This document shows, piece after piece, positions 23,717-29,236 of a stretch of DNA of 64,000 nt; position 1 is the stretch's first letter; every line of letters begins with the position of its first letter. A program made the position numbers and the translations under genes. The DNA comes from Chitinophaga niabensis (GTDB taxonomy: Bacteria > Bacteroidota > Bacteroidia > Chitinophagales > Chitinophagaceae). Location of the stretch: NCBI GenBank assembly GCA_017849435.1, contig JAFIGY010000012.1, positions 248,001 through 312,000 of the forward strand, given 5' to 3'. The notes under the pieces are model-generated. The model searched no databases. It was not told the origin of the DNA and saw nothing but the letters and a program-made list of their open reading frames with translations.

Positions 23717-23753
23717 AAAAGGAGCATTGAGGGAATACTTCAATGCTCCTTTT
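23717..23753. terminator. bidirectional terminator between the SusC operon and the bufferin-like operon
   Basis: A 14-bp perfect stem (23717-23730 with 23740-23753), nine-base loop, A-run on the left and T-run on the right, so it can stop transcription from both sides. The stop codon of the convergent DoxX gene (23740-23742) is inside the stem. Confidence 0.85.
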
Positions 23754-24195
23754 TTAATTTTTGGGAGGAGGTATCTATAACCCTGTCCAGACTAAATCTT
23801 CCCGCGCCGTTTATGAATAACACAAGCAACATCACCAGATAGTACAACGGTATCTCAAATCCATTATCGCCTGCCTCGAACCCATTATGCAGGTGCACGG
23901 TGCCAATAGCTACCAGCATCATGATCATCAGCGGTACTGCAATGATCCTTGTACCGAGCCCCGAAATCAGTAATACAACACCGAGTGCTTCTGTTGACGC
24001 AGTGAGGTAGGCATTGAATGCCGGGGCCGGTATCCCTGTTTCTCTGAACCAGGCTGTAACGCTGCCGATGTCCGCCCATTTTACGCGGGCTGTGGTATAG
24101 AAACCAAAAGCCAGCACAAGCCTTGTCAGCAAGAGGGGAATGTCTTTCAGTTTTTCCAGTGTGCGTACACTCCTGTAGTAATTCAACGTTGCCAT
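23740..24195 (-). CDS. DoxX-family membrane protein of the bufferin-like operon (BufD/HvfD-like)
   Basis: An inner-membrane protein of 151 residues with four predicted helices (about 20-38, 62-80, 84-102, 116-132). The family signature is present: LLLTRLVLAFGFYTTARVKW in helix 1 and STEALGVVLLISGLGTRI in helix 2. DoxX proteins are recurrent partners in bufferin/Hvf clusters, with a suggested role in the electron or redox step of peptide modification (known of the family, not shown). It is the last gene of the minus-strand operon, three bases after the DUF2063 gene. Two other DoxX-like proteins occur at 52860 and 59916 outside the operon. Confidence 0.85.
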   Translation of the reverse strand: MATLNYYRSVRTLEKLKDIPLLLTRLVLAFGFYTTARVKWADIGSVTAWFRETGIPAPAFNAYLTASTEALGVVLLISGLGTRIIAVPLMIMMLVAIGTVHLHNGFEAGDNGFEIPLYYLVMLLVLFINGAGRFSLDRVIDTSSQKLKKEH

Positions 24196-24198
24196 TTG

Positions 24199-24954
24199 TT
24201 ACACTTTTTTAAATCCAAGTACCAGCCCGCTTTTCAGGCCGCTACTGATAAATGTGGCAACCATCTCAAGGATGGATTTGTTGACCGCAATTCCGAGCGC
24301 TGCGCAGATGGTGCTTACCAGTTCTTTCGTATTTGCAGGTCCGGTCGCCAGTAACTGTAACAGGTCGGCCAGGGCAGGAGAAAGGTCCATGAACTGCACA
24401 TTACCTGTATCCGGTTCGCGGAAAAGGATGAGGTGATAATCCCCTTCATCCGCCGCTTTTATCTTTTTCGCCTGCTTCAGATGCACGGGGTACCGAAAGC
24501 GCAGCAGGATATGCTCAGGGTTCAATACCAACGGATCCAGCAGCAGATCTCCGGAACGGGTAAATGCGGCGGGCTTATCTTCCATCATAAATAGCGCTGT
24601 TTCTGACCATTCCAGGCGGAGTAATTCTTCAAGGAAGGGATATTGTTTGAAAAGAGGATGTTGCACATCCGTCATATATTGATGCAGTTCCTCCGGCATT
24701 TGCCACACCTGGGGAGCCTGGCAGGGGTGATGGGTGAAGAAGTCGAGCACCAGCGCTTCCCATTCTCCTTCAGACAGCAGGTTGTGCGTAAGCGGATAAG
24801 CAGATTGCAGGATATCCGTTACGATGTTCAATACCAGCCTGCGATACTGGGAAACATGTTTGGTATGAATGCCGGGAATGTGACGATATGCGCCACTGCG
24901 ACAGTAATTGGCTAATGCAGACTGATGGCGTTGTGTGGTTTCAAGTAACAACAT
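24199..24954 (-). CDS. DUF2063 partner protein of the bufferin-like operon (BufC/HvfC-like)
   Basis: The partner of the DUF692 oxygenase, 251 residues and cytoplasmic. The N-terminal DUF2063 domain (about 1-90) shows YRRLVLNIVTDILQSAYPLT and a typical EGEWEALVLDFF-type helix (here LLSEGEWEALVLDFFTHH). The C-terminal part (about 95-250) contains LEELLRLEWSETALF and a winged-helix-like end (TGPANTKELVSTICAALG). In bufferin and methanobactin systems the equivalent protein binds the oxygenase and delivers the precursor leader (family knowledge). Its start lies inside the 3' end of the DUF692 gene (14-base overlap), so the two are made together. Confidence 0.82.
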   Translation of the reverse strand: MLLLETTQRHQSALANYCRSGAYRHIPGIHTKHVSQYRRLVLNIVTDILQSAYPLTHNLLSEGEWEALVLDFFTHHPCQAPQVWQMPEELHQYMTDVQHPLFKQYPFLEELLRLEWSETALFMMEDKPAAFTRSGDLLLDPLVLNPEHILLRFRYPVHLKQAKKIKAADEGDYHLILFREPDTGNVQFMDLSPALADLLQLLATGPANTKELVSTICAALGIAVNKSILEMVATFISSGLKSGLVLGFKKV

Positions 24955-25771
24955 ATGGCACTTTTTTTAGGCTGGATGTTTTAATGGCTTGCAAACGTTC
25001 TATTTCCTGCTGCATTTCCTCCAGTTCCGGAATATTGAAATCCCTTTCCAGCAGAACAGGCACATCCCTGTTCAGTTTCTTTATCGCATAAGCAAAGAGG
25101 TCATAAACGGGATCGATGATAGGCTCTCCATGGGTGTCAATGATCAGGTCGTCGGCCACCTGCTCGTGACCTGCCATATGAATATAACGCACCCTTTTCA
25201 TGGGCAGCTGATCGATGAAGGTGATGGCATTGTATTGATGGTTGAAGCTGTTCACATAGATGTTATTCACATCCAGTAACAGCTCGCAATCCGATTCTTC
25301 GAGTATGGCATTGATAAAGTCTGCTTCCGTCATTTCCGGCGCAACCGGCGTGTAATAGCTGACGATTTCCATTGCTATTTTCCTCTCGAGGAAATCCTGC
25401 ACCGTCCGTATCCTCCGGGAGACGTGCCGCACTGCGTCCATGGTGAACGGGATAGGGAGCAGGTCGTATAAATGTGCGTTATCGCACCGGGAATAGCTAA
25501 GGTGCTCGGAGTAGAGCTGCGCATTGGTTTCCCGGAGAAAGTTCTTTACCCGTTTCAGGAAAGCGAGATCGAGGTCATCCGGACTGCCGATGGAGAGGGA
25601 TAATCCGTGCGTGAACAGCGGATATCTTTCCAACGCGCGATGGAACAGCTTTTTCCAGTAGCCGCCGATGCCTATCCAGTTTTCCGGCGCTACTTCTATG
25701 AAATCAGGGCGAAGGGTTCCTTCGTCCAGCAGTGCTGCTGCAAAATCTTTTCTGAATCCGATACCAACCAT
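24941..25771 (-). CDS. DUF692 multinuclear iron oxygenase (BufB/HvfB/MbnB family)
   Basis: Peptide-modifying enzyme of 276 residues, TIM-barrel fold. The family uses two or three irons to convert Cys of a precursor to oxazolone/thioamide or thiooxazole groups. Putative metal ligands are all visible: H55 (FTHGLSLS), H90 (YSEHLSYS), E135 (AMEIVSYY), D167 and N169 (LLLDVNNIYVN), H198 (YIHMAGH), D212 and H214 (IDTHGEP) and E242 (LLERDF). E26 lies in FIEVAPENW. Residue numbers are counted here; their roles come from family knowledge. It is 66 bases after the precursor gene, across a hairpin. Confidence 0.9.
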   Translation of the reverse strand: MVGIGFRKDFAAALLDEGTLRPDFIEVAPENWIGIGGYWKKLFHRALERYPLFTHGLSLSIGSPDDLDLAFLKRVKNFLRETNAQLYSEHLSYSRCDNAHLYDLLPIPFTMDAVRHVSRRIRTVQDFLERKIAMEIVSYYTPVAPEMTEADFINAILEESDCELLLDVNNIYVNSFNHQYNAITFIDQLPMKRVRYIHMAGHEQVADDLIIDTHGEPIIDPVYDLFAYAIKKLNRDVPVLLERDFNIPELEEMQQEIERLQAIKTSSLKKVPYVVT

Positions 25772-25804
25772 GACTGGAAATTTTTAAATGAAATGAAAAG
25801 AGAG

Positions 25805-25831
25805 CAAGGCAGGCATGGGTAGCCTGCCTTG
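25805..25831 (-). promoter_or_regulatory. hairpin between precursor and oxygenase genes
   Basis: A 10-bp perfect stem (25805-25814 with 25822-25831) and seven-base loop in the 66-base gap. On the minus strand it is followed by CTCTCTTTTC, only weakly T-rich, so it may be a partial terminator or an mRNA end-protector. Either would keep precursor mRNA more abundant than enzyme mRNA. Confidence 0.6.
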
Positions 25832-25837
25832 AGGGGA

Positions 25838-26167
25838 TCAGTTACCTCCGGACTTGCCTTCTTTAGGTTTGCTTTTCATCTGCTTCTTCATATCCTTCTT
25901 CTTTTCCCCGCATTTTCCTTCACCGCACTTTCCTTCCTTCCCCTTTTTGGACATGGTAGAATCCATCTTCTTGCCCTTTTCCCCACACTTCAGCTCAATA
26001 TGCCGGGCGTCTGTATGCCCGGCCATCAGGCGGGTTCTGACCGTTTCTCCGGAGCCGAGCGTGTTGAAATGGAATGGGTTGGCGGCATTAGCATTCAGTG
26101 CTGTTGCAGTGAACAGGGCCCCGGCTATCAGTGAACCGGCCATCAGGCTTTTCTTTTTGATTTCCAT
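25838..26167 (-). CDS. bufferin-like precursor peptide (Cys-motif metallophore, BufA/HvfA-like)
   Basis: Secreted precursor of 109 residues. The signal peptide (hydrophobic 7-24) ends near ALNANA (residue 28). Next comes an uncharged/mixed leader (NPFHFNTLGSGETVRTRLM), then a Lys/Gly/Glu-rich tail with three Cys: C61 in LKCGEKG, C81 and C86 in KEGKCGEGKCGEKK. The EGKCG repeats are the known modification motif of bufferin-type ribosomal peptides. The tail ends in KEGKSGGN, a motif copy with Ser in place of Cys. The genes for modifying enzymes follow directly on the same strand. The mature product would be predicted to bind copper or another metal in the periplasm; that is inference from the family. 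Confidence 0.85.
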   Translation of the reverse strand: MEIKKKSLMAGSLIAGALFTATALNANAANPFHFNTLGSGETVRTRLMAGHTDARHIELKCGEKGKKMDSTMSKKGKEGKCGEGKCGEKKKDMKKQMKSKPKEGKSGGN

Positions 26168-26170
26168 TGT

Positions 26171-26233
26171 TGTCAGGTTTTGGGTGAATAATAGATTTTA
26201 CTGAATAGTCGGCATACCGCCGTTAACCTGACA
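26171..26233 (-). promoter_or_regulatory. inverted repeat in the precursor leader
   Basis: Nine-base perfect inverted repeat (TGTCAGGTT at 26171-26179, AACCTGACA at 26225-26233), 45 bases apart, with a smaller CGG-CATA-CCG hairpin inside. It begins four bases upstream of the precursor ATG and could fold in the mRNA or bind a dimeric regulator. No function is shown. Confidence 0.35.
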
Positions 26234-26252
26234 GTGAAAGGGAGGATTTTTT

Positions 26253-26519
26253 TTATTTTTCTTCCAGATTGTTGAGGATCTTCTTTTTGAGGCCGGTTGT
26301 ATCGGAAACCGGCAGTTTTTCAGGATGGGTATGATCCTTAAAGAAGAGCTTGTGGAGGAATCTGCTCTGCTTTTTATATTGGGTGCAGGCATCGCAAAAA
26401 AGCGTATGCATGAATAGTCTGGTTTTCTCAAGAGGTGTGAGCGTAAAATGAAGCTGCTTGTCGATCAGCTCCGTAGCTTTCCTGCAGGAAAGCATCAGTA
26501 TGTGCATTAACTTCCTCAT
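26253..26519 (-). CDS. small Cys-containing anti-sigma-like protein
   Basis: An 88-residue cytoplasmic protein. MLSCRKATELIDKQLHFTL and FMHTLFCDACTQYKKQSRFL form a Cys...CxxC pattern like the zinc-finger (zf-HC2-type) anti-sigma domain; the expected zinc His is probably replaced or shifted, so the call is by resemblance. No membrane helix is visible. Its ATG overlaps the sigma stop (TCAT at 26516-26519 on the plus strand), the usual coupling for sigma/anti-sigma pairs. It would hold the sigma factor inactive until metal or redox stress changes its Cys site. This is inference. Confidence 0.7.
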   Translation of the reverse strand: MRKLMHILMLSCRKATELIDKQLHFTLTPLEKTRLFMHTLFCDACTQYKKQSRFLHKLFFKDHTHPEKLPVSDTTGLKKKILNNLEEK

Positions 26520-27106
26520 CGTTCTTTTTTAAACCAGTGTTTTTCCAGGCATTGACGTAACTGTAATTTGGCCCGGTGCAGGATCTGCCAGAAATTGGAC
26601 GGTGAAAGCTGCAAATCCTGACAGATGTCCTTACTGTCTTTCTCCTCCAGGTATTTTAATTGTACGGCGGAGAACCAGTGGTCCGGTAATTTCTTCATGC
26701 ATTGATCCAGTATATCCCTGAAAGCGGTGTTATCCAGGAGATGTGCTTCATCTATATGCCAGGGTTGGGGCCTGGCTTCTTTCCTCCAGCTTCCGTTATC
26801 GTCAAAGAAGCGCTCCGGTTCCGAATGCTTAACCGGGGAGGCGGCGTTCCGCATTTTTTTTCGATGATGGTCGATGATCTTGTGATTCAGAATAGAGAAC
26901 AGCCAGGTGCCTGGATTGCTTTCTCCTTTGAATTTTCCGATAGATTGAAAAGCGGACAGGAAAGTTTCCTGCACAAGGTCCTCCGCCGTTGAATTGTTCT
27001 CAACGCGACGGCAGGCCCATGCAAACAGGCTGTCCGTATACAGTTCCACCCACGATTTGATGGTACTGTGAGGATCGTCCTTGATATTTCCGGATACCGG
27101 GCTCAT
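26516..27106 (-). CDS. ECF-type RNA polymerase sigma factor heading the bufferin-like operon
   Basis: A 196-residue sigma-70 family factor. The sigma-2 region (about 18-95) contains AEDLVQETFLSAFQSIGKFK and TWLFSILNHKIIDHHRKK, and the sigma-4 region (about 130-190) contains LPDHWFSAVQLKYLEEKDSK and the HTH LQLSPSNFWQILHRAKLQL. An 80-residue linker between them is rich in charged residues and Trp/Pro. It heads the six-gene minus-strand operon and overlaps the anti-sigma gene. The ECF-sigma/bufferin pairing has precedent in Caulobacter (known), so it probably drives the operon in response to metal stress. Confidence 0.85.
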   Translation of the reverse strand: MSPVSGNIKDDPHSTIKSWVELYTDSLFAWACRRVENNSTAEDLVQETFLSAFQSIGKFKGESNPGTWLFSILNHKIIDHHRKKMRNAASPVKHSEPERFFDDNGSWRKEARPQPWHIDEAHLLDNTAFRDILDQCMKKLPDHWFSAVQLKYLEEKDSKDICQDLQLSPSNFWQILHRAKLQLRQCLEKHWFKKER

Positions 27107-27153: not shown

Positions 27154-28356
27154 TTACCCCGGGAAGCTCACTTTACCCATGGATACATTCGGTATCCCGT
27201 TGCGCCCTGCACCAAAATTCACCGCGCCTCCGCAAAGTGTTTCGTTCGCGAGTACTGCAAACAGTACGGCTTCCTTTGCATCCGGATTAATATGAAGGTC
27301 TTTCGTGCTGTGGAAAGTACAGCCGGGGAGGAGTTCCCGGATGTTTTGCATCAGCAGGGGATTGTGCATGCCGCCGCCGCTGACATAGAACCGGAATCCC
27401 GCGCCGTTGTCGGTCACTGTTTTGATCGCTTCCGTGATGGTTTCTGCGGAGAAGCGGTTGAGCGTGGCCATGACGTCTTCCACGCTCAGGCCGGTGGTAT
27501 TTGACCTTTGCTGTGCCTGGTGCAGGTGGGCGAGATTGAAGAGTTCCGGGCCGGTGGTTTTCGGAAAAGGTTGTGCAAAGAAAGGATGATCTTTCAACGC
27601 CGCCAGCAGGGCAGGATGTACACGGCCTTTGGAGGCGATCTCCGCGTGTTCGTCGAAATAACGGCCGGGAAAGTATTCCCGTGTGAGGGCGTCCATGAGC
27701 GTATTGCCGGATCCGGTATCGCTGCAGAACACCTCGTCCGCATTCAGACTGCCGGGCAGGAAGGTGAAGTTGGCGATACCGCCGATATTCAACATGATGC
27801 GGTTCTCTCCTTTTTTGGAGAAGATGAGGAAATCTCCGTAGGCCGCCAGCGGCGCTCCTTCTCCGCCTGCCGCCACATGTTTCTGCCGGAAATCGCTGAG
27901 CGTGATGATGCCGGTTTCGATAGCCATGTGATCTCCATCCCCGATCTGCAGGGTGGCGTTACTGAATTTTGCATGTTTGTGCAGGGATTTGGGTGCGTGA
28001 AAGATCGTTTGTCCGTGACTGGCGATCAGGTCTATTTCACCGGCCGGTCTCCGCCATTTTTCCAGGCAGGCCAGGATCATCTTCGCATGTTGTTGCGCTA
28101 CCCATCCGTTGAGCAGGCATACTTTTTCCAGGTCTACCTGTCTTTTGGAAAAGACGCTGCTGATCTCCTGCTTGTAATCTTCGCCATAGGGCACTGTTTC
28201 GAACTCCAACAGGCTAATCCGTGTATCCATGCCCGTGCCGGAGAAACGGCATAATGCAACGTCAAGGCCATCCAGCGAAGTGCCGGACATCAGGCCGATG
28301 ACGGTCCGCTCAGGGCGGTTGGCGATGGCATGCAGGCGGGAAATGTTCATATTCAT
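27154..28356 (-). CDS. anmK: anhydro-N-acetylmuramic acid kinase
   Basis: Cytoplasmic kinase converting 1,6-anhydroMurNAc plus ATP to MurNAc 6-phosphate, the entry step of muropeptide recycling. The start at 28356 (or 28350) is chosen because an in-frame extension to 28491 crosses the divergent promoter and does not look coding; this gives about 400 residues. Motifs present: VIGLMSGTSLDGLDVALCRF near the N-terminus, ASHGQTIFHAPK, MLNIGGIANFTFLPG, FCSDTGSGNTLMDAL, and FYVSGGGMHNPLLM. It is divergent from a DeoR regulator and lies at the edge of the cell-wall salvage locus. The downstream sigma gene is only 47 bases away, so some read-through is possible. Confidence 0.93.
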   Translation of the reverse strand: MNMNISRLHAIANRPERTVIGLMSGTSLDGLDVALCRFSGTGMDTRISLLEFETVPYGEDYKQEISSVFSKRQVDLEKVCLLNGWVAQQHAKMILACLEKWRRPAGEIDLIASHGQTIFHAPKSLHKHAKFSNATLQIGDGDHMAIETGIITLSDFRQKHVAAGGEGAPLAAYGDFLIFSKKGENRIMLNIGGIANFTFLPGSLNADEVFCSDTGSGNTLMDALTREYFPGRYFDEHAEIASKGRVHPALLAALKDHPFFAQPFPKTTGPELFNLAHLHQAQQRSNTTGLSVEDVMATLNRFSAETITEAIKTVTDNGAGFRFYVSGGGMHNPLLMQNIRELLPGCTFHSTKDLHINPDAKEAVLFAVLANETLCGGAVNFGAGRNGIPNVSMGKVSFPG

Positions 28357-28391
28357 ATTTTGCACGGATTTAATTGTTTTTGCATACGTGG

Positions 28392-28429
28392 ATGCATATA
28401 TTTTCATGTATCTTAGTAAAAATATGCAT
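28392..28429. promoter_or_regulatory. imperfect inverted repeat, candidate DeoR operator
   Basis: In the 133-base gap between divergent anmK and deoR-type genes. ATGCATAT (28392-28399) mirrors ATATGCAT (28422-28429); allowing one mismatch the arms reach 12 bases (28392-28403 with 28418-28429) over a 14-base AT-rich spacer. Symmetric sites like this are bound by dimeric or tetrameric repressors of the GlpR/DeoR type. Confidence 0.45.
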
Positions 28430-28489
28430 TTTTTTGCGGTTTTGTATTGTTTTTTGCAGTAAATTGCTGCAAGACCAAAATCAGCAGGC

Positions 28490-29236
28490 ATGCTTAAAAA
28501 AGAGCGGCAATCATTTATTCTACGTCAGGTGAATTTGCACAACAAGGTGTTGTCCGTTGATCTGAGCCAGCAAATGGAGGTTTCCGAGGATACTATCCGG
28601 AGGGATCTGAACGAGATGGCGAAGCAGGACAAACTGATCAAGGTACACGGCGGTGCCCTGTCCAAATCATTCCACCTTTCCATTGCATCTGACCACGTTT
28701 ATGCATTAAGCAGCAAAAAACTCATTGCCATGAAAGCCTGCCGGCTGATCAAAGACGGAATGTTCGTACTCACTACCGGCGGCACCACTATCATAGAGCT
28801 GGCCAAATCATTGCCGCCCGAGCTTTCCGCCACTTTCATCACGGTGAGTTTACCCGCAGCTTACGAATATATTCACCATCCGAATATTGAAGTGATATTC
28901 ATCGGTGACAAAATCTCCAAGAGCTCCCAGATCTCCATCGGGGGAGGCGTAGTATCAAAGATCAAGGGGATACGGGCAGACCTGTGTTTCCTCGGTACCA
29001 ATGCCATTGACGTGAAGCACGGTATTACAGATAATGACTGGGATGTGGTAGAAGTGAAAAAAGCGATGGTGGAAGCATCCGACCGCATCGTTTCCCTCTC
29101 CATCACAGAAAAACTGAATACGGCGCAGCGCATCAAGGTGTGCGATATCACCCGCGTCAGCACCCTGGTAACAGAGCTGGACCCGGGAGATAAAATTTTA
29201 AAACCATATCGGGAGACCGGCATCGAAATTTTATGA
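28490..29236 (+). CDS. DeoR/GlpR-family transcriptional regulator
   Basis: A 248-residue sugar-phosphate-responsive repressor. The N-terminal winged HTH reads LSVDLSQQMEVSEDTIRRDLNEM with the DTIRRDL signature. The C-terminal DeoRC sensing domain (about 75-235) contains LTTGGTTIIELAKSLP and IDVKHGITDNDWDVVEVKKAM. It is divergent from anmK and directly upstream of the second SusC/SusD pair (65-base gap). The natural effector would be a sugar phosphate such as MurNAc 6-phosphate or GlcNAc 6-phosphate; this is inferred from the neighbours. Confidence 0.92.
   Translation: MLKKERQSFILRQVNLHNKVLSVDLSQQMEVSEDTIRRDLNEMAKQDKLIKVHGGALSKSFHLSIASDHVYALSSKKLIAMKACRLIKDGMFVLTTGGTTIIELAKSLPPELSATFITVSLPAAYEYIHHPNIEVIFIGDKISKSSQISIGGGVVSKIKGIRADLCFLGTNAIDVKHGITDNDWDVVEVKKAMVEASDRIVSLSITEKLNTAQRIKVCDITRVSTLVTELDPGDKILKPYRETGIEIL

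Follow-up and report, generated by a model that had tools for sequence, protein, structure and literature searches.

A probable Hvf/EGKCG-type metallophore operon headed by its own ECF sigma factor in Chitinophaga niabensis, with predicted promoters and a terminator-like hairpin

A total of 64,000 nucleotides from Chitinophaga niabensis (GenBank assembly GCA_017849435.1, contig JAFIGY010000012.1, positions 248,001 to 312,000; this whole stretch is called the window) were used for the analysis of a putative metallophore operon. Six open reading frames (ORFs) on the minus strand at 23740-27106 encode, in this order, an extracytoplasmic function (ECF) sigma factor, a zinc-binding anti-sigma (ZAS) protein, the precursor of a ribosomally synthesised and post-translationally modified peptide (RiPP), a multinuclear non-heme iron-dependent oxidative enzyme (MNIO), a DUF2063 partner protein and a DoxX-family protein. 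The genes and their profile matches are as follows.

26516..27106, minus strand: ECF sigma factor, 196 aa (Pfam Sigma70_r2 8e-17, Sigma70_r4_2 4.4e-8; NCBIfam sigma70-ECF over cut-off)
26253..26519, minus strand: soluble ZAS-type anti-sigma, 88 aa (NCBIfam antisigmaE 48.9 bits, just under the cut-off of 50)
25838..26167, minus strand: RiPP precursor, 109 aa (NCBIfam KCGExKCG_twice 18.3 bits, just under the cut-off of 19.5)
24941..25771, minus strand: HvfB-family MNIO (DUF692), 276 aa (Pfam PF05114, MbnB_TglH_ChrH, 1e-97; PDB 3bww 3.3e-69)
24199..24954, minus strand: HvfC-like partner (DUF2063/PME1), 251 aa (Pfam DUF2063 3.3e-17, NGO1945_C 8.6e-15)
23740..24195, minus strand: DoxX/HvfX-family membrane protein, 151 aa (Pfam DoxX 2.7e-16; NCBIfam HvfX 117.2 bits, cut-off 80)

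The ORF list confirmed the coupling of six minus-strand genes that the original prediction had described: the sigma and anti-sigma genes overlap by 4 bases, the MNIO and DUF2063 genes overlap by 14 bases and a 3-base gap separates DUF2063 from DoxX. The sigma and anti-sigma genes are found at the head and DoxX at the end, as was stated there. Gaps of 85 and 66 bases are present between anti-sigma and precursor and between precursor and MNIO, respectively. The host genome (5.0 Mb) contains a single MNIO. The profile matches to DUF692, DUF2063 and DoxX that the original prediction had named as checks were all obtained, and the precursor narrowly missed its model.

Gene content, enzyme families, the ZAS motif, promoter-like sites and a hairpin, all seen in the sequence, suggest that this gene set is probably a metallophore operon of the Hvf/EGKCG (captophorin) type, controlled by an ECF sigma/ZAS anti-sigma pair of its own. 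The MNIO passes the NCBIfam model HvfB (NF003818) with 391.5 bits against a cut-off of 360 and showed no membership in ChrH (55 bits, cut-off 600). Comparison of eight Bacteroidota MNIOs revealed nine invariant residues (H55, H90, E135, D167, N170, H198, D212, H214 and E242). Matched through their motifs, N170, D212 and H214 would correspond to N175, D242 and H244 of HvfB, whose loss abolishes activity (PMC13419390). The partner reached 137.7 bits with the NCBIfam model HvfC, just below its cut-off of 142, and a profile of 20 partners matched PDB 3dee at 8e-21; single-sequence phmmer searches of the partner and of the anti-sigma against the PDB gave nothing useful. Going by the Pfam model name and the wording 'PME1, N. 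gonorrhoeae' in PMC13097082, we take NGO1945 to be the DUF2063 partner of PDB 3dee.

The precursor, by reading, has a Sec-type signal peptide, a FHFNTLGSGETVRTRL segment and three KCG motifs, two of them within one EGKCGEGKCG double repeat; its match to the NCBIfam HvfA model is 16.7 bits against a cut-off of 95. Among 63 precursor ORFs of the first locus set (defined below) the number of cysteines ranges from 3 to 9. A peptide with two repeats was modified and a peptide with one repeat was unmodified in published work (PMC13097082). Two features of captophorin clusters, an HvfB-family MNIO and an adjoining DUF2063/PME1 partner, are thus present here, with the precursor model below threshold.

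The anti-sigma carries the motif C12-X25-H38-X3-C42-X2-C45, which fits the published ZAS signature, C/H-X23-26-H-X3-C-X2-C (PMC7907618). Of the 37 anti-sigmas in the first set, 36, that of the host among them, contain a slightly wider pattern, C-X(22-28)-H-X3-C-X2-C, and the exception is the shortened protein of locus L158. Reading of the protein sequence showed no obvious transmembrane segment, which agrees with the cytoplasmic location of MseR and HrsE, also of the ZAS type. A search of the anti-sigma profile against the PDB set returned no ZAS structure (best E 0.23, chance-like). Locus L158 (genome G798) retains an anti-sigma-like ORF of 40 aa, and locus L150 (G794) has a precursor promoter with one mismatch and no sigma or anti-sigma found by profile; both look like decaying heads of the operon.

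The gene set is patchily distributed. In genome samples that overlap and include the host, the HvfB cut-off was exceeded by MNIOs of 7 of 395 genomes of the phylum, 20 of 395 of the class and 14 of 394 of the family. In the genus, where E <1e-100 was the limit in place of the HvfB cut-off, MNIO matches occur in 36 of 79 genomes, host included. A first set of 65 loci consisted of the window's own locus, 55 genome regions and nine named Bacteroidota loci drawn from 80 named loci. The full order sigma-antisigma-precursor-MNIO-DUF2063-DoxX was present in 29 of these and the same order without DoxX in six (35/65); one further locus has sigma first and anti-sigma at the opposite end. The remaining 29 have no sigma within 3.5 kb, and one of them keeps a shortened anti-sigma. 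The second set comprised 19 regions less two already represented (L281 and L287, taken as repeats of L031 and L037), and 11 of its 17 new loci are sigma-headed. In Bacteroidota the sigma-headed set thus recurs in 47 of 81 loci when L195, which lies below the HvfB cut-off, is excluded. Since the same order recurs in many Bacteroidota, the six-gene arrangement is not due to chance. L195 is also outside the tree and hairpin counts given below, as are L281 and L287; the L037 locus is in none of the counts, and L028, L029 and L033 are apparent duplicates of L151, L190 and L175.

Ten Chitinophaga loci (L170, L173-L177, L179-L182), none with a sigma pair, have precursors with KCA, KCS, KCV or similar motifs and no KCG. 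Substrate motif and regulation therefore changed together. Other MNIOs are widespread in the genus (22-33% identity to that of the window), with up to three matches in some genomes.

Three candidate regulatory features were identified in the operon.

26596..26622, minus strand: candidate sigma-dependent promoter in the region 4.2 codons of sigma, GTCAGG-N15-CGTCCA with one mismatch, 76 bp 5' of the anti-sigma start
26206..26232, minus strand: predicted sigma-dependent precursor promoter, GTCAGG-N15-CGACTA, exact, ending 38 bp 5' of the precursor ATG
25805..25831, minus strand: terminator-like hairpin in the precursor/MNIO gap (stem of 10 pairs, 7 of them GC; tail CTCTCTTTTC)

The pattern scored was GTMAGG-N15-CGWCTA. 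It occurs exactly once in the host genome, at 26206-26232 ahead of the precursor, and with one mismatch at 19 more places, one of them within the sigma gene. The first set has the pattern, with up to one mismatch and within 150 bp of the precursor, in 27 of its 36 sigma-headed vs 3 of its 27 sigma-less loci (Fisher p 5e-7, relatedness ignored; all P values in this study treat loci as independent, though they are related). The sigma-headed count rises to 28 of 36 after correction of a mis-called start in L193, whose exact site overlaps that start. Dinucleotide shuffles produced a precursor site in 1 of 12,600 cases. No precursor was found in L195 and L200, which are outside the promoter counts. 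At least one exact site is present in 46 of 79 genus genomes, and the host contains 11 exact copies of a reversed control pattern vs one of the motif, so that base composition shapes the counts. The pattern is neither rare alone nor free of composition effects, and its weight therefore lies in where it recurs.

The window site, GTCAGGTTA-12-CGACTATT, is closely similar in both boxes and identical in spacing to the neisserial sigma-E consensus (GTMAGBWTT, 12-13 nt, CGTCTAAH; PMC2893595), with three departures: the ninth -35 base and, in the -10 box, T to A and A to T. The third -10 base was T in 20 and A in eight of 30 sites.

Two other candidate drivers were rejected. A site ahead of sigma itself, as expected for autoregulation, was absent from -200 to +60 of sigma with up to one mismatch in 0/35 judgeable loci of the first set and 0/11 of the second, that is 0/46 hvf-linked sigma genes; L038 starts at a contig end and its upstream region is not judgeable. 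Ordinary sigma-70 promoters were found in two cases vs 5.5 expected in shuffles, and that consensus is in any case unsuited to Bacteroidota. A conserved block, TTAACATTTTTTTG ... AAACTAAAAC ... CCGTAAGC, is present 5' of sigma in many Chitinophaga loci (several of L156-L178) and may be its housekeeping promoter.

The second copy of the pattern overlies codons for C(K/Q)(D/E)LxI(T/S)x(S/T)N in region 4.2 of sigma, and in 26 of 36 first-set loci it lies 70-93 bp 5' of the anti-sigma start. The internal site could be a by-product of the strongly conserved protein segment CK(D/E)LxI(T/S)xSN and not a promoter, an explanation that we regard as possible though not as the favoured one. It was addressed by a null in which the protein was fixed and codons were drawn from the usage of the same operon. 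Under this null 18 of 36 first-set loci have exact internal sites vs 0.20 expected, and 32 have sites with up to one mismatch vs 2.33 expected; among ten sequences below 50% identity, three are exact vs 0.04 expected. The second set, which was not used to form the idea, gave exact sites in 2 of 11 loci vs 0.035 expected (P 5e-4) and sites with up to one mismatch in 7 of 11 vs 0.48. All of these counts argue against a by-product of the protein, as does the result that no site with up to one mismatch occurs on either strand of the MNIO, DUF2063, DoxX and anti-sigma genes of sigma-headed loci (about 100,000 positions per strand). The antisense strand of sigma has 0 such sites vs 40 in the sense strand, a count that included the duplicate L281. 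Furthermore, the internal site is exact in L153, L171 and L172, the three Chitinophaga loci in which the precursor promoter is missing.

The by-product explanation draws support from the window itself, where the internal copy has one mismatch (CGTCCA) and a synonymous-codon P of 0.083, and the window internal site is therefore a candidate only. The relatedness of the loci also means that the internal-site P values are overstated. In the clade around L032 (record titled Flavobacteriales) five of seven loci have two mismatches at the internal site. No internal site was found in the sigma genes of Acinetobacter L070 and L072 and Methyloprofundus L075 (best 3-4 mismatches). Unlinked sigma genes of the family have 3-7 mismatches at this position and are a weak codon control only, because the amino acids there also differ.

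The original prediction had described a gene run without a clear internal stop, and this is contradicted by the terminator-like hairpin between precursor and MNIO. The z-score of the window hairpin, calculated as were all others from 60 shuffles, is -5.3, or -3.9 with slightly different bounds. Across 80 loci the precursor/MNIO gap has a hairpin z below -2 in 78 (mean z -4.4), with a stem of 9-19 pairs in 74 and at least five T among the next ten bases in 58; the hairpin lies at a median of 12 nt 3' of the precursor stop. Other gaps of the operon gave 7 of 41 (mean -0.4) for anti-sigma/precursor and 0 of 3 for DUF2063/DoxX, where few gaps are long enough. The precursor/MNIO gap of loci L043-L107 gave 10 of 42 (mean -1.4). 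The sequence of the hairpin varies between lineages and the hairpin itself is kept. We read it as a leaky terminator or an mRNA-stabilising element, either of which would favour precursor over enzyme.

Overall, these observations suggest a reading for which we consider the case evenly balanced: the Bacteroidota sigma would have its promoter written into its own -35-binding domain, giving a captophorin module with negative-only feedback, opposite to the positive loop of Neisseria, in which the hairpin sets the ratio of precursor to enzyme. With the promoter in region 4.2 codons, free sigma would refill its own inhibitor along with the payload.

Peptide chemistry, metal and inducer are inferred in the following scheme. 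Zinc-bound anti-sigma would retain sigma in the cytoplasm until its Cys/His cluster is damaged by metal stress or by a stress that oxidises thiols, and sigma is released. Free sigma would then read GTMAGG-N15-CGWCTA ahead of the precursor and, in relatives, also the copy within the sigma gene, a negative feedback through which anti-sigma is replenished. Part of the transcripts may stop at the hairpin that follows the precursor, which would yield much substrate and little enzyme. The MNIO and its DUF2063 partner would turn the KCG cysteines into 5-thiooxazoles before Sec export, and the periplasmic peptide is predicted to bind Cu(I) and/or scavenge oxidants, with DoxX as a putative membrane accessory.

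Analysis of other genes associated with this sigma family bears on the inducer. Anti-sigma profile matches were found in 23 of 79 genus genomes, and in seven (G735, G792, G801, G813, G833, G651 and G798) a sigma/anti-sigma pair occurs outside the hvf operon. An exact site lies directly 5' of sigma in six of the seven unlinked pairs; G651 has exact sites nearby and not directly ahead. Exact sites precede msrB (a SelR-domain gene) in five hvf-bearing genomes (G786, G793, G807, G808 and G825), where SelR identity was scanned with Pfam in two (~1e-49) and matched by eye in the others. In G812, and by gene order in G828, an exact site leads a series of cytochrome b561, Mo-oxidoreductase, msrB and msrA, with an AhpC/TSA gene beyond a second, divergent exact site. 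Pfam was applied to msrB, msrA and AhpC/TSA of G812 and to the G735 copies of the first two; msr sites thus occur in seven relatives, with Pfam in three. This company resembles that of RpoE2 in Haemophilus and sigma-E in Neisseria. Unlinked Chitinophaga sigma/ZAS pairs at L318, L319, L321 and L322 have back-to-back sites, with sigma to one side and b561/Mo-oxidoreductase or a 433-aa protein to the other; the 433-aa protein has no Pfam match (L321), and genes downstream in L321 and L322 have sub-threshold YHS matches.

The operon had been predicted to be a stress-inducible metal-buffering unit. The stress part is upheld by the promoter and by the msrA/msrB sites of relatives; as the inducer, oxidative or thiol stress is no less likely than metal. 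An alternative that deserves tentative consideration, and that we do not prefer, is that the system is chiefly a device against envelope stress of the oxidative (hypochlorite/thiol) kind, the thiooxazole/thiol peptide being a sacrificial antioxidant and metal binding secondary. The sites of relatives before msrB, msrA and the b561/Mo-oxidoreductase pair, with the AhpC/TSA gene across the divergent site pair, are consistent with such a device, as are the hypochlorous acid (HOCl)-inducibility of the Haemophilus homologues through RpoE2 (PMC7907618) and the response of some ZAS anti-sigmas to oxidants (PMC2893595). It is opposed by the copper binding of EGKCG peptides matured by homologous enzymes (PMC13097082), by the unchanged expression of meningococcal sigma-E under oxidative stimuli (PMC2893595) and by the host genome, in which none of the other genes has an exact sigma site.

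Several results weigh against a sigma-controlled Hvf/EGKCG operon with the promoters described. The window precursor has only three Cys, and the matches of precursor, HvfC and anti-sigma are all slightly below their NCBIfam cut-offs. The sigma pair is missing in 34 of 81 loci. The precursor site is lacking in 9 of 36 sigma-headed first-set loci before the L193 correction and in 9 of 11 sigma-headed loci of the second set, where just two have it; exact precursor sites are present in three sigma-less loci (L034, L283 and L286), including two of the six sigma-less loci of the second set, and there sigma would need to act from elsewhere. Neither promoter, at up to one mismatch, is found in 7 of 47 sigma-headed loci (L202, L030, L032, L280, L285, L292 and L293). 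The commoner reversed pattern in the host, the mismatches of the internal copy in the window and in the L032 clade, and the lack of a second gene with an exact site in the host belong here as well. The single msrA locus of the host (L333) has no site up to one mismatch, host msrB not having been looked for, and one further exact site in the genus (G832, L332) has no recognisable stress-gene target.

The MNIO tree comprised 101 rows, of which 20 are non-Bacteroidota: 17 taken as every fourth of L042-L106, plus L039, L072 and L075. Eighteen Pseudomonadota rows were split from the other 83 (81 Bacteroidota, one Chlamydiota and one Verrucomicrobiota) at 100/99. Sigma presence on the tree requires 18 changes, at least nine of them forced by well-supported branches, and sigma therefore came or went often; our reading is repeated loss. 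Linked sigma genes of this family also occur outside Bacteroidota, among the 65 loci L043-L107. In Acinetobacter (L070 and L072) sigma and then the ZAS anti-sigma follow precursor, MNIO and DUF2063, in this order; DoxX lies upstream on the opposite strand and is immediately preceded by a one-mismatch site. Both loci have a strong precursor/MNIO hairpin (z -4.0 and -5.7). In Methyloprofundus (L075) sigma, a ZAS-type anti-sigma and DoxX are at the head, with a one-mismatch site about 20 bp before sigma, unlike in Bacteroidota. L080 has a weaker sigma without anti-sigma. Hvf-type loci L039 and L042, from records titled Waddliaceae (Chlamydiota) and Verrucomicrobia, fall on the Bacteroidota side of the tree on long branches.

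A stray copy of the gene set, recently acquired from Pseudomonadota, would fit the patchy occurrence above the HvfB cut-off (7/395 phylum and 14/394 family genomes), the two separate lineages of the gene set held by the genus and the sigma-headed order in one Methyloprofundus locus (L075). The 100/99 separation of all 81 Bacteroidota rows from the 18 Pseudomonadota rows, the lack of the internal promoter in three Pseudomonadota sigma genes of this family and the far commoner hairpin in Bacteroidota make such an origin quite unlikely. A true bufferin (Buf1 or Buf2) operon, which would have the same core enzymes and DoxX and for which sigma genes are reported in Buf1 clusters (PMC12452194), is very improbable and was rejected because the precursor has no DUF2282 match (E up to 1) and the MNIO passes HvfB and not BufB (NF050167, 271.3 bits, cut-off 310), and the precursor has an EGKCG double repeat and three Cys vs the 6/12-Cys of Buf2. 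Of the bufferin/HvfABCD-like assignment first made for this operon, the Hvf/EGKCG (captophorin, "oxazolin") branch thus stands and the bufferin part does not.

Comparison with known systems revealed the Neisseria rpoE-mseR operon (NMB2140-2145; gonophorin genes ngoABC) as the nearest match (PMC2893595, PMC3240639, PMC13097082). It likewise consists of six genes, namely doxX, three that were uncharacterised when the operon was described, rpoE and one for a ZAS anti-sigma, and its promoter is near-identical. It differs in gene order and in that its promoter lies 5' of doxX and its sigma is positively autoregulated, whereas the window promoter lies 5' of the precursor and none is found before sigma. 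Without MseR, doxX rises 36-fold, the three next genes 12-13-fold and msrA/B 80-fold (PMC3240639). Haemophilus influenzae hvfABCX/oxazolin shares the KCG-repeat precursor, HvfB MNIO, HvfC DUF2063 protein and DoxX, and likewise control by an ECF sigma (RpoE2) that is paired with a small ZAS anti-sigma of the cytoplasm, HrsE (PMC7907618, PMC13419390). There doxX is first by gene number and sigma is elsewhere beside msrAB, in contrast to the window with its sigma/anti-sigma head and promoter after them; HvfA has six modified Cys and the window precursor three Cys. The Haemophilus doxX, periplasmic, UPF0276 and DUF2063 genes are HOCl-induced in an RpoE2-dependent manner (PMC7907618). Captophorins and fontiphorin (fonABC) share the EGKCG precursor, MNIO and DUF2063 partner, and have 5-thiooxazole and Cu binding, the FonA double repeat losing 8 Da (PMC13097082); for the window this chemistry is predicted. 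That survey covered Pseudomonadota reference genomes. Bufferins share core genes and an export signal and differ in precursor families, and the sigma partner in Buf1 is NrsF (PMC12452194) in place of a soluble ZAS protein. ChrH/DybH MNIOs (chryseobasins) are also MNIO RiPP systems of Bacteroidota, including Chitinophaga, of another MNIO subfamily with CPxCGxG substrates (PMC12636315).

Control of this gene set by sigma and ZAS anti-sigma is already known from published experiments in Neisseria and Haemophilus, and with it the parts of the operon. Within the literature searched, the sigma-headed set recurring in Bacteroidota, the promoter placement including the internal copy, and the precursor/enzyme hairpin appear new. 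EGKCG precursors are reported as mostly from Pseudomonadota, and sigma genes are named for Buf1 clusters (PMC12452194). The main text of that paper has no word beginning 'Bacteroid', its figures, whose taxonomy charts may include Bacteroidota, lying outside this statement; PMC13097082, figures again apart, has none either. Among the matches listed in open-licence literature there was none on the operon in Bacteroidota, nor on any sigma factor with a promoter in the region 4.2 codons of its own gene.

A RiPP system for copper binding that has been described chiefly from Pseudomonadota would hence be extended to another large phylum, where it forms a self-contained unit whose switch can be read. 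The link to methionine-sulfoxide repair across phyla bears on the metal vs oxidant role of the peptides. The dual-coding promoter, if true, would give a striking example in which the gene of a transcription factor has its own target site within the part coding for the DNA-binding domain.

The flanks of the operon hold two further features. An AnmK-like kinase gene, identified by reading, lies on the same strand at 27154-28491 and ends 47 bases before sigma; read-through from it into the operon is possible. The other feature is at the doxX end.

23717..23753, no strand assigned: 16-pair hairpin, listed for the plus strand only

This hairpin is a possible bidirectional terminator of the operon and of a convergent gene.

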